This document shows, piece after piece, positions 18,197-60,477 of a stretch of DNA of 64,000 nucleotides. Within the stretch, counting starts at the first letter, position 1; each line of letters starts with the position of its first letter. The notes beneath the pieces were generated by a model. The model was given only the letters and a program-made list of their open reading frames with translations, had not been told where the DNA came from and made no database searches. Source of the DNA: Streptomyces coryli (GTDB lineage Bacteria > Actinomycetota > Actinomycetes > Streptomycetales > Streptomycetaceae). The position numbers and the translations under genes are program-made. The stretch covers positions 1 through 64,000 of the forward strand of contig NZ_JAAKZV010000014.1 in the NCBI RefSeq assembly GCF_011044975.1, read 5' to 3'.

Positions 18197-21100
18197 GTGT
18201 CTGTCACCGATGCCTCATCGTCCCAGGTGGGGATGTGGATCACTGACAAGGTCAAGCCGTCGATCCACAACAACATTGGCGCGTGGTGGGCCGTCGACGG
18301 CGCGCTCGACCCGTCCGTACTGACCGCGGCATTCCGGCAGGCGCTGCACGAGAACCCGAACCTGCTCGTCACCTTCGAGGAAACCGAGTCCGGGATGCGG
18401 GCGGTGCCGCGCGAACTCGGCTCCTGGCAGCCCTTCTTCTACGATCTGAGCGATGCCCGGAACGTCGAGGAAAAGCTGTATGACGTGCTCACCGAGGTGC
18501 ATGAGACCAGGTTCGACCTGAGCCGCGATGTGCTGTTCCGGCTCGGCGCCATCAAACTCGGCGAATCGCGCTGGCTGTACTGCCAGATATTCCACCACAT
18601 CGTGAACGACGGCCTCGGCTACAACAACTTCGCGGTGCGGTGCGCCGAAATCTACACCGCCCTGGCCGAGGGGAATCCGGTGCCGGAGGCGCCGGTCTTC
18701 GACAGCGGCATCGTGGCGGCCGAAGAGGCGGACTACCGGCGGTCTCCGCAGTTCGCGGAGGACGCCGCGTTCTGGCAGGACTACCTCGCCGATCCGCCGG
18801 ATGCCGCCCGGCTGCCGAGCGTCCCCGGCGCTGGTGAGGCCAGGTCCGACGACGACCCGGCACCTGACCCCGGGCCGGCGCGGATCGCCCACGCGATCGG
18901 CATCGCGAACTGCACCAGGGTGATCCCCAGCGCGGAGGTCACCGAGTGGAAGCGCGTCGCCAGGTCCGTAGACATCTCGATACCCACCCTGGTGGCGACG
19001 GCCGCCGCCGTATTCCTGCACGAAAGCTGCGGGCTTTCGGAGCTGATGTTCTCCATCGCCGCGGGCAACCGTTCCGAGTCCACCCGTAAAGCGACCGGAA
19101 TGGCCGCGAACTTCATCCCGTTACGGGTCGCGGTCCGGCAGACCGACTCGTTACTTGATATCGCCCGCGCGGTCGCCACGGAGAAGGCGGCCGTCATTCC
19201 GCACAGCCGGCGGCTGATCTCCGACATCCGGCAGGACATGGGGCTGACCGACGTCGCCCGCAATCCGCTCGGCGTGATCCTGAACTTCATCCCGATGCAG
19301 CGCCTGCGCTTCGGCACGTATCAGGCGTCCTTCTTCGGCGGCTGCTTCCCCTCGCCGGACGAGCTCATGATCACCGTCTTCCGGTCCGGTCCCGAGGAAG
19401 CCGTCACCATCAGCATGGACGCGCCCCGGACCATGTACTCCGCCGCCGAACTGGAGCAGTTCTCGGCACGGCTCGTACGGTCCGTGCGCACCCTGGTCGC
19501 CGATCCGCGGGCGCGGGTCGCCGCGGTGGACCCGCTGGACGCCGCCGAGCGGGACTGGCTGCTGCGGGAGCTGAACGACACCGGCGTACCGCTGCCGGGG
19601 CTGGCGCTGCCGGAACTGATCGCACGGCACGCGGAGCGCAAGCCCGATGCCGTGGCCCTGGTCGCGGGCGACGAGGTCCTGACGTACTGGGACCTCGACA
19701 CGCGCGCGCGTCGGCTGGCGGGCGTGCTGCGGCGCCGGGGTGTCCGCGCCGAGACCGTCGTGGCGGTCGCCCTGCCGCGCTCGGCCGACCTGGTCGTCGC
19801 CCTGCTGGCGGTGCTGAAGGCGGGCGGCGCGTATCTGCCGCTGGACCTCAAGTCGCCGGCGGAGCGGATCAGTTCGATGCTGCGGGACGCGGACGCCCGC
19901 GTCCTGCTGACCGACGCGGCGACGGCCGGGACGCTGCCCGACGATCTGGCACCGTCGCTCGCCACCCTGCTGCTCGACGACGAGGCCGGCCCGGATTCCC
20001 CGGGCGGCACCGAAGCCGCATTGCCCGAGCTCCCGGTGCGGTGGGAGCCGGGCCAGTTGGCGGCCGTCATGTTCACCTCGGGATCGACCGGAGCTCCCAA
20101 GGGGACCGGTACGACGCACCGCAACCTCGAGGCGTATGTGACGGACCGCCGCTGGCGGGACGACAGCCACGCCGTCTCGCTGTTCCACTCGCCGCAGACC
20201 TTCGACGCGTTCGTCAAGGAACTGTGGGTGCCGCTGGCGAACGGCGGCCGGGTGGTGGTGGCGCCGCCGGGAGAGCTCGAGATCGAGACGCTCGCCGAGC
20301 TGCGGGCCGCCCACCGGATCACCGTGCTGTGGCTCACCGCGGGCCTGTTCACGGCCATCGCGGAGGAGCGCCCGGAGTGCCTCACCGGGCTGCGCGAGGT
20401 GTGGACCGGCGGCGACGCGGCGTCCCCGGCCGCCTGGCGCCGGGTGCGCGAGGTCTGCCCCGATGTGACGCTCGGCAACGGCTACGGGCCGACGGAAACG
20501 ACGGTGTTCGCCACCGGGCACCGCATCGCCCCCGGTGAACCGGTGGGCCACACCGTCCCGATCGGCCGCCCGCTGGACAACACCGCGGTGTACGTCCTCG
20601 GCCCCGGCCTGGCGCCGGTCCCGGTCGGCACCGTCGGCGAGCTGTACGTGGCCGGCGCCGGCGTGGCCCGCGGCTACGCCGGGCGGCCGGGACAGACCGC
20701 GGAGCGGTTCGTGCCCTGCCCGTTCGGCCCCGCCGGCGAGCCGATGTACCGGACCGGAGACCTGGTGCGCTGGGACGGCGAGGGCCGGCTCGAGTACGTG
20801 GGCCGGGCCGACGCGCAGGTGAAGGTGCGCGGCTTCCGGATCGAGCCGACCGAGATCGAAGCGGTGCTGAACGAGCACCCCGGCGTAGCGCAGTCGCTCG
20901 TGATGGCCAGGGCCGACGGCTCCGGGCCCCGGCGGCTCGTCGGATACGCGGTGCCCGCCGGCGGCGGGATCGTCGGCGGCGACGGCGCGGGCGGGGTCGG
21001 CGACCTCGACTTCCAGGCGGGTGTCTCGGGCAGCGAGCTGCGCCGGTTCGCGGCCGAGCGGCTGCCGGAGTTCATGGTGCCGGCGGCGTTCGTGGTGCTC

Positions 21101-59710: not shown

Positions 59711-60477
59711 CCCCCGGCTCCACCACCGCCGCGACGCCGTGGCTCGTCCGGCCGCCGGCCGCCGGACATCCCGCCCGGATCTTCTGCCTGCCCTTCTCCG
59801 GATCGGGGGCCTCGGCCTTCAGCGCCTGGCCCGCCGTGATCGGCGATGCCGAGGTGTGCCCGGTGCAGGCCCCCGGCCGCGAGAACCGGCTGGCCGAGCC
59901 GCACTACGGCACGTACGAGAACCTCGCCGCAGGGCTGGCCGAAGCGCTGGCGCCGCACCTCGACCGGCCGTACGCGTTCTTCGGCCACTGCGCGGGCGCG
60001 CTGCCCGCGTACGAGACCGTGCTCCGGCTCGCGGAACTCGGCCTGCCCGCACCGGACTTCCTGTGCGTGTCCGGCCAGCCGGCGCCGCACCAGGCCGCGC
60101 AGGACCGGATGCTCACCATGACCGAGCCCGAACTGCGCGCCGAGGTCGAGTCGTTCATCCGCGGCCGGGGGATCGAACCCCGCCCCGACATGGTCGGCAT
60201 GGGGCTGACCGTCCTGCGCCAGGACCACGCCGCCGCGAAGGCGTACCGGCGGACGGAACCGGTCGCGGTGTCCTGCCCGGTCGTCGCCCTGCACTGGCGG
60301 GACGACCCCGACGTGGCACTCGCCGATCTCGACGGGTGGCGACGGTACGCGCACCAGGTCGACATCCGGGTCGTCGACGGCGGCCACTACGACTTCATGG
60401 ACGCGCCGGACGAGCTGCAGCGGCTGCTGGCCCGCCGGCTGCGGCGACCGGCGTACGGAAAGGGGAATGCCGGATGA
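59707..60477 (+). CDS. Thioesterase-like alpha/beta hydrolase with Cys nucleophile (second candidate shuttle)
   Basis: The 256-residue thioesterase-fold protein begins with IFCLPFSGSGASAFSAW. The nucleophile elbow is FFGHCAGALPAYE (59983-59997): G-x-C-x-G, with Cys for Ser and normal spacing. The acid region is WRDDPDV and the His is in VDGGHYDF. Cys at this place characterises the aminoacyl carriers SyrC and CmaE. Its start codon overlaps the P450 stop, so PCP, P450 and this protein form one unit. I infer it carries the P450-treated residue to NRPS B module 2 or NRPS F. Hydrolytic editing is the alternative. Confidence 0.86.
   Translation: MTPGSTTAATPWLVRPPAAGHPARIFCLPFSGSGASAFSAWPAVIGDAEVCPVQAPGRENRLAEPHYGTYENLAAGLAEALAPHLDRPYAFFGHCAGALPAYETVLRLAELGLPAPDFLCVSGQPAPHQAAQDRMLTMTEPELRAEVESFIRGRGIEPRPDMVGMGLTVLRQDHAAAKAYRRTEPVAVSCPVVALHWRDDPDVALADLDGWRRYAHQVDIRVVDGGHYDFMDAPDELQRLLARRLRRPAYGKGNAG

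Follow-up and report, generated by a model that had tools for sequence, protein, structure and literature searches.

The closest described systems to the locus reported here are of two kinds, the WS20/GlobC-type and the PlyS/ArtN-type thioesterases of nonribosomal peptide synthetase (NRPS) assembly lines, the former likened by gene set and the latter by gene order and protein lengths. The first kind is a set of a thioesterase (TE), a short-chain dehydrogenase (SDR) and coupled adenylation (A) and thiolation or carrier (T) domains, found in the WS9326A (WS20-22), globomycin (GlobC-E) and himastatin clusters, for which it has been proposed that the SDR converts Thr to allo-Thr and that the thioesterase shuttles the allo-Thr (PMC9943842). 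The second kind belongs to the polyoxypeptin and aurantimycin clusters, in which the published role of PlyS and ArtN is hydrolytic release and the re-activation of the released 3-hydroxyleucine is assigned to PlyX or to a modular A domain (PMC3943440, PMC5031334); deletion of plyC, plyD, plyQ, plyI or plyS abolishes polyoxypeptin (PMC3943440). Here we analyze a stretch of 64,000 nucleotides from Streptomyces coryli (positions 1 to 64,000 of contig NZ_JAAKZV010000014.1; hereafter the window), which carries a high-GC NRPS cluster; the nearest relatives found for it belong to Streptomyces and its family. It encodes two type II thioesterase-like proteins with Cys at the nucleophile elbow, which we term TEalpha and TEbeta. 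We propose that the cluster specifies a cyclic piperazate depsipeptide of the polyoxypeptin/aurantimycin type, two modules of which would be loaded in trans via TEalpha and TEbeta, a reading to which we assign a probability of about three in four.

The assembly line runs on the plus strand through four synthetases built of condensation (C), A, T, epimerization (E), methyltransferase (MT) and TE domains: NRPS B (C-A-T-E-C-T; 18197..24586, by domain search), NRPS C (C-A-T-E-C-A-T; 24583..32361), NRPS D (C-A-MT-T-E-C-A-T; 32358..41312) and NRPS F (C-A*-T-TE, A* being a decayed A domain; 46187..50020). The specificity codes, read by eye, are DVFSVASYAK for the first A domain of NRPS C and DVFSVAAYAK for the second of NRPS D; they were compared with those quoted in PMC3943440, where the same strings are given for the piperazate domains PlyF-A1 and HmtL-A1 (of himastatin), respectively. 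Together with a terminal TE, a free A domain, carriers, a P450 and thioesterases, the two piperazate-code domains give the window the features of a polyoxypeptin/aurantimycin-type depsipeptide cluster. Two modules stand out. The second module of NRPS B (about 22922-24502) is a clean C-T unit, as an earlier note on this DNA had read it: its A domain is absent and only ~35 residues separate C from the T domain, B-T2 (about 24278-24502, plus strand), which is the proposed acceptor of TEbeta. The terminal module on NRPS F, which ends in a type I TE with an ordinary Ser (GWSYGG), retains a decayed A domain (about 47543-49015) followed by the T domain (about 49040-49258) that is the proposed acceptor of TEalpha. 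In this A domain A3 reads LPGPAGELEG, the Asp of A4 is lost (LGMAHTE), A8 reads QVQIQGFR and the Lys of A10 is lost (DGRPD). The earlier note had all its key motifs destroyed; this holds for the key residues of A3, A4, A8 and A10 and is too strong as a whole, because A7 (RTGD) is intact and A5 (VYGPAE) nearly so.

Each of the two Cys proteins lies in an operon with a loading or tailoring set of its own, as the earlier note had also observed, and the coordinates which that note gave for the two Cys motifs are exact. Between NRPS D and NRPS F a minus-strand operon encodes TEalpha (45089..45859), an SDR (44278..45102) and NRPS E (41375..44245), which consists of a C-like remnant, an A domain and a peptidyl carrier protein (PCP) domain, the proposed donor carrier of TEalpha. 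The elbow of TEalpha, GHCFLG, is encoded at 45587-45604 with Cys88 in the place of the Ser of WS20/GlobC-type or editing (GHSxG) thioesterases, and is one residue longer than in the GHSLG homologs; the Asp and His positions are conserved. The nearest NCBIfam family of the SDR is TIGR03971 (mycofactocin-coupled SDR), with 276.7 bits against a cut-off of 300. The code of NRPS E reads by eye D-F-W-N-V-G-M-V-H, with the motifs FDFSVWE and MFGITETTVH; we take this code to be close to that for Thr and the FDFSVWE/MFGITE type to be that of Thr-activating domains. The plus-strand reading of 41249-44263, opposite NRPS E, is a nonsense frame and was discarded. The N-terminal third of NRPS E is a degenerate condensation-like region with HRRAVDR where HHxxxDG is expected.

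Near the right end a plus-strand operon with 4-base overlaps encodes a stand-alone carrier (58215..58466), a cytochrome P450 (58463..59710), TEbeta (59707..60477) and a Ser type II thioesterase (GHSMG; 60474..61262). TEbeta has GHCAG at 59983-59997, with Cys95 as the presumptive nucleophile. By gene order the carrier resembles PlyQ/ArtL and the P450, a proposed beta-hydroxylase of a carrier-bound residue, PlyR/ArtM; gene order and lengths together suggest that the operon is the counterpart of PlyQ-R-S and ArtL-M-N (PMC3943440, PMC5031334). The carrier at 58215 would be the donor of TEbeta. The free A domain expected to load it (15125..16729, plus; alternative open reading frame (ORF) start 15014) is PlyC/ArtC-like by gene order and is 82% identical to its counterpart in Streptomyces sp. 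WAC 01529 (genome G001 below). It is preceded by an MbtH-like protein (14892..15089, plus) and followed by its own carrier (16747..16974, plus; alternative start 16708), PlyD/ArtD-like by gene order, an FAD oxidoreductase and then NRPS B. A first-pass gene finder based on third-position GC content (GC3) had overlooked TEbeta and several other genes.

The general family models place both Cys proteins together: the Pfam family Thioesterase (PF00975) matches TEalpha (1.7e-31) and TEbeta (1.2e-29), NCBIfam has no match for either, and in a PDB search both score best against the type II thioesterase RifR. A tree of 118 thioesterase rows separates them. The earlier note had allowed that both might prove to be natural Cys variants among ordinary editing thioesterases; each falls instead within a Cys clade of its own. 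The TEbeta rows are all Cys (support 100/97) and separate from TEalpha; they number 42 and represent 32 different proteins, ten of which occur twice. All 11 GHCFLG rows fall together (100/99), within a 51-row clade (99/100) that is otherwise Ser except for locus L043; in the sister rows L025 and L026, which have an SDR as well, the elbow is GHS. TEalpha is thus a Cys offshoot of a mainly Ser thioesterase group often found beside an SDR, since its clade nests inside the otherwise Ser one.

Of 394 Streptomycetaceae genomes, 53 have a homolog of TEbeta at 1e-45, as do four of 396 genomes sampled across the phylum, all four already present in the Streptomycetaceae sample. The Cys is kept in 31/31 fetched homologs (43-78% identity, found by homology), as are the Asp and His positions, and in each of the 17 close homologs (69-78%) a carrier and a P450 lie directly upstream. 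In the wider TEbeta-like family (L101-L114; 43-55% identity) Cys is likewise present in 14 of 14; these may be further shuttles. The neighboring Ser thioesterase at 60474-61262 belongs to a clade of seven rows, all of them Ser, in which six relatives have a single copy each; it probably has an editing role.

The relatives of TEalpha were gathered in two ways. A contig scan with six patterns, including FGHCFLGA, gave nine loci (two Streptomyces, one Kibdelosporangium, one Amycolatopsis, one actinomycete metagenome-assembled genome and four Paenibacillus) and supplied nine of the 11 GHCFLG proteins; in all nine, as in the window and in G389, TE, SDR, A and T lie side by side. The associated A domains have FDFSVWE in 11/11 and MFGITE/MYGITE..VH in 10/10 with A5 covered. 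The conservation of GHCFLG itself among the scan loci (9/9), being biased by the FGHCFLGA pattern, was set aside and checked by searches relying on homology only. In these, 274 of 297 Streptomycetaceae genomes match TEalpha at 1e-20; among 30 best-match loci of the 274, an SDR is adjacent in 28 and the elbow is GHS in 28, the other two being L043 of G208 (GHC-LGG) and the WAC 01529 locus (GHCFLG). The G389 protein, also with GHCFLG, surfaced via homology to TEbeta. A region alignable with the C-like remnant of NRPS E precedes the A domain in seven of the nine scan loci, Paenibacillus included.

From these gene sets the following course may be proposed. NRPS E would activate L-Thr and hold it on its own carrier, where the SDR would probably invert the beta-carbon to give allo-Thr; Cys88 of TEalpha would then accept the aminoacyl group and hand it over to the T domain of F, the terminal module with the dead A domain. 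In parallel, the free A domain would load a hydrophobic residue, probably Leu, onto the carrier at 58215, the P450 would beta-hydroxylate it there, and Cys95 of TEbeta would pass the product to B-T2, the T domain of the A-less module that ends NRPS B; the new beta-hydroxyl would presumably close the ring. The predicted product is an acylated peptide in which one D residue precedes a depsipeptide ring of six residues; the ring would contain two piperazates, start with a beta-hydroxy residue and finish with a Thr-derived one. SyrC and CmaE, which have a Cys nucleophile, are described as moving aminoacyl groups between carriers, as is proposed here for TEalpha and TEbeta. The Cys nucleophile fits transfer better than hydrolysis, though it is not proof; LgnA both transfers and hydrolyzes with a Ser (PMC8748450). 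The identity of the TEbeta residue is suggested by the in vitro behavior of ArtC, which prefers Val and also accepts Ser and Leu (PMC5031334), and by the presence of 3-hydroxyleucine in aurantimycin and polyoxypeptin.

The pairing of shuttles with acceptors was examined in 12 clusters, the window and 11 genomes, ten of them picked by a TEbeta homolog; G001 entered via TEalpha and has a TEbeta homolog as well. The terminal A10 is in view in ten clusters of this type, all of which carry TEbeta. Its Lys is lost in all three that have TEalpha (the window, G001 and G389) and kept in the seven that do not (G374, G239, G013, G259, G040, G106 and G257), 'without TEalpha' meaning no GHCFLG protein within the fetched 60-100 kb stretch; the Fisher p of 0.0083 is only a guide, given the common descent of the clusters and with G013 being nearly a copy of G040. 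In six of the seven, the whole-genome search with TEalpha has a Ser protein as its best match (G374 lies outside that sample): L032 and L034 in G013 and G040, and, by position, the thioesterase beside the terminal NRPS in G239, G259, G106 and G257. In G212 the terminal A10 is not covered and the other motifs are intact. Across all clusters the A10 Lys is lacking in 11 of 87 A domains, namely eight first-module and three terminal ones, and in 0/76 others; the A domain of the G239 first module, split into two hits, was counted once (88 hits thus being 87 domains, and 12 Lys-less hits 11 domains), and four hits with A10 uncovered were dropped (G389 at 1, 22896 and 33827; G212 at 2402).

The orthologous cluster of G001 has an F protein 77% identical to that of the window, and its A domain is altered in its own way (TTESTDEPRG, GGFQ, PDGDLD; the A8 strings were read by eye). 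The dead terminal A domain is on average less conserved than its C domain (identity 0.77 vs 0.82; three clusters), the reverse of the live terminal A (0.81 vs 0.78; three clusters). In G257 and G259 the terminal A domain has the same Thr-type motifs intact; therefore a terminal Thr loaded in cis probably exists in the family. In G389 the terminal NRPS occurs a second time, with a broken frame, right after the other NRPS genes (32191-34755 and 33827-34687, in concatenated coordinates), and the copy adjoining TEalpha has an open frame, which suggests that the terminal module was replaced upon the arrival of TEalpha.

The eight first-module domains belong to a PlyX/ArtT-like module that follows the polyketide synthase (PKS) and is visible in eight relatives. 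In all eight its A domain lacks both the A3 Lys and the A10 Lys, and it is less conserved than its C domain (mean identity 0.66 vs 0.74), while in the live neighbor module A stands at 0.82 and C at 0.79; both comparisons cover seven clusters, G040 being left out as a near copy of G013. The first module falls outside the fetched stretch in G259 and G212 and was not found in G231 or the window. The window thus has no PlyX/ArtT-like protein, and the A-less module of NRPS B sits at the matching place, right before the D-piperazate module. B-T2 groups with the eight first-module T domains in a clade of support 100/99, in a tree of only 74 columns whose deeper forks are unsure; it used 115 of 120 T domains, leaving out the carrier at 5688 and the short second T of G004, G005, G007 and G008. 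The gene sets, the Cys clades, the lost A domains, the conserved acceptor T and the one-to-one co-occurrence are observed in the sequences. The proposal of the earlier note that the shuttle logic serves twice, for Thr and for a P450-treated residue, gains from the covariation across relatives, which lets partners be assigned: most likely TEalpha feeds F and TEbeta feeds the last module of B. The aminoacyl transfer itself we infer.

Beyond the window's own cluster type the same coupling recurs, since each of the 11 TEalpha loci offers a possible acceptor, a carrier that lacks a live A domain belonging to it. It is a terminal C-A*-T-TE in the window, G001 and G389, a terminal C-T-TE in G005, G007, G008 and G009 (the C-T-TE terminus accompanies TEalpha in four Paenibacillus clusters), and a C-T at the contig end in G006. 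In G002, G003 and G004 the protein with the A domain extends into T-T-TE, with its second carrier as the candidate; those of G002, G003, G006 and G009 group in one clade (100/98). In TEalpha loci outside the window's cluster type the fused terminal TE also has a Cys (GHCNG or GHCVG) in the seven in view: G002 (23098-27309), G003 (41586-45344), G004 (35079-38771) and the terminal NRPS of G005, G007, G008 and G009. The obafluorin TE has a Cys and forms a beta-lactone; by analogy, clusters that couple a Cys terminal TE with a Thr-type loader may make Thr beta-lactone products.

Several observations weigh against this double trans-loading. Among the more distant TEbeta homologs a P450 was matched in five of 14, and in nine of 14 none lies in the short flank covered. 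The invariance of GHCFLG among the scan loci is in part a product of the search, as said above. In G389 the terminal A domain keeps the A3 Lys and A5 and has lost the A8 and A10 residues, which makes its death less certain. G231, which is a cluster of another kind, has a TEbeta homolog and an A-less C-T module whose T domain falls outside the first-module clade. The second carrier of G002-G004 shares a protein with the Thr A domain and might be loaded directly. In G013 and G040, whose terminal A domain is intact, a Ser TE paired with an SDR occurs at another genomic site (L032, L034). The clusters are related, so that 3/3 versus 7/7 are not ten independent events, and the three with TEalpha may share one gain; most comparison clusters were picked for a TEbeta homolog, so that its presence is by construction. 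Lastly, a Ser thioesterase of the broad TEalpha clade adjoins F (GHSLG; 50013..50750, plus), and its positional counterpart plyI is essential for polyoxypeptin (PMC3943440).

The alternative that survives best, though we consider it unlikely, is release and re-activation: the Cys thioesterases would hydrolyze the finished residue off the donor carrier and an A domain would re-activate the free amino acid, as has been proposed for 3-hydroxyleucine in polyoxypeptin (PMC3943440) and aurantimycin (PMC5031334). A Cys-Asp-His triad is capable of hydrolysis, and LgnA combines both activities. However, the module that would re-activate the residue has a decayed A domain in the eight relatives in view and none in the window, and the A domain of F is decayed in all three TEalpha clusters; therefore re-activation would need another A domain acting in trans. 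Slightly less probable again is an exchange of partners, with TEbeta feeding F and TEalpha the A-less module of B, or both serving both. One WS9326A thioesterase does bind both donors (PMC8748450), and allo-Thr could also occupy position 2; yet among the ten TEbeta clusters the decay of the terminal A follows TEalpha, B-T2 falls in one clade with the first-module T of clusters that have TEbeta only, and in Paenibacillus TEalpha goes with terminal C-T-TE.

Direct trans-adenylation, in which NRPS E or the free A domain would load the acceptor T domains and the Cys proteins would only edit, has precedents in CmnA-A1, which loads an A-less module in trans (PMC12400406), and in bripiodionen, the production of which survives deletion of a thioesterase gene (PMC10956176). 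It is improbable here: each donor side has a carrier together with a tailoring enzyme presumed by analogy to work on it, so that the residue would need to leave that carrier once tailored, and the Cys is strictly conserved and PlyS essential (PMC3943440). Least probable is a reading in which the Cys proteins merely edit or are relics, and F has its real shuttle in the Ser thioesterase at 50013-50750. That protein lies in the 51-row clade of TEalpha, its ORF overlaps the end of F, and it is PlyI/ArtI-like by position, plyI being essential for polyoxypeptin (PMC3943440). However, this type occurs equally where the terminal A is intact and TEalpha absent, and both Cys clades conserve the positions of Cys, Asp and His. 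A Ser thioesterase after the terminal NRPS is found in related clusters with or without TEalpha, and the candidate idea that it is specific to clusters with a dead terminal A was dropped on that account.

The remaining genes of the window comprise further NRPS and supply functions. Besides the two Cys proteins there are three Ser type II thioesterases, the third at 62398..63186; the earlier note leaves these three unmentioned, as it does the carrier at 58215 and the free A domain with its own carrier. A lone C-A-T-E NRPS on the minus strand (5924-10492), followed by a small carrier protein (5685-5915, minus), has C (HRIAADA), E (HQLVADVES) and A3 (TPLG) motifs that are altered; its code is piperazate-like, and it looks like a decaying copy of the piperazate module. 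A row at 51054-56406 encodes phenylacetate-CoA-ligase-like, class IV aminotransferase, prephenate-dehydratase-like, ornithine cyclodeaminase family, DUF1330 and PhzF-like proteins, a putative route to a starter acid or an amino acid; none has a match at 1e-8 within the 80 kb of WAC 01529 searched. The amino acid kinase and class III aminotransferase genes at 11708-13995, which we take to be argB/argD-like, might perhaps provide the ornithine from which piperazate is made; the subset of window ORFs scanned showed neither a piperazate synthase nor an ornithine N-oxygenase. A domain search of the window gave no ketosynthase (KS) or acyltransferase (AT), so that the PKS of the acyl chain was not seen there; in relatives such as G001, G389 and G374 a KS-AT-acyl carrier protein (ACP) PKS follows TEbeta.

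Extended to the whole polyoxypeptin/aurantimycin type, the proposal would be that a Cys aminoacyltransferase (TEbeta) carries the first residue to a module with a fossil A domain, that some clusters gained TEalpha and their terminal A domain then decayed, and that Ser changed to Cys twice independently, favoring transfer over hydrolysis; on this wider claim we find our judgment evenly divided. If true, it would conflict with the published release-and-reactivate model for 3-hydroxyleucine and revise the loading step of a family of depsipeptide antibiotics; it would also explain why code-based prediction of the first residue fails, a disagreement left open in PMC10888640. Live, eroded and missing A domains with a conserved acceptor T would then mark a visible route from cis to trans loading. 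The two sets would be natural cassettes for installing Thr-derived and beta-hydroxylated residues via a T domain alone, and the passage from thioesterase to transferase becomes testable as a change of Ser to Cys, with the one-residue longer elbow in TEalpha. No statement of a dead first-module A domain or of a residue delivered in trans is present in the excerpts of PMC3943440, PMC5031334 and PMC10888640, nor such a claim among the matches listed in the open-licence literature, mostly titles and abstract starts.

Compared with the described systems, then, the TEalpha cassette shares its gene set and Thr code with WS20/21/22 and GlobC/D/E, and WS9326A has an acceptor module without an A domain (PMC9943842, PMC8748450); the acceptor module on F retains a dead one. 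The use of two shuttles is not new, because two thioesterase shuttles in one assembly line were already proposed for WS9326A (PMC8748450). The nucleophiles seen reported for such shuttles are Ser. The WS20 homolog of enduracidin needs Ser79, as S79A abolishes the product (PMC13320435), where TEalpha has a Cys and a longer elbow. LgnA, likewise of type II, has been shown to transfer Thr to a C-T module from a stand-alone A-T, but its nucleophile is Ser77 and the excerpts describe no tailoring enzyme on its donor carrier (PMC8748450). PlyC/Q/R/S and ArtC/L/M/N present the free A domain, carrier, P450 and thioesterase in the window's order and at similar size, alongside piperazate modules as in the window (PMC3943440, PMC5031334), and in clusters of this type the code of the first module disagrees with the residue found in the product (PMC10888640); the window differs in lacking a PKS and, at the matching module, an A domain, and TEbeta is read here as a shuttle where PlyS and ArtN are assigned to release. 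The kind of system is thus known; what is new is the pair of distinct Cys clades, the fossil first-module A domain (in all eight relatives seen) and the switch of the terminal module from cis to trans loading.

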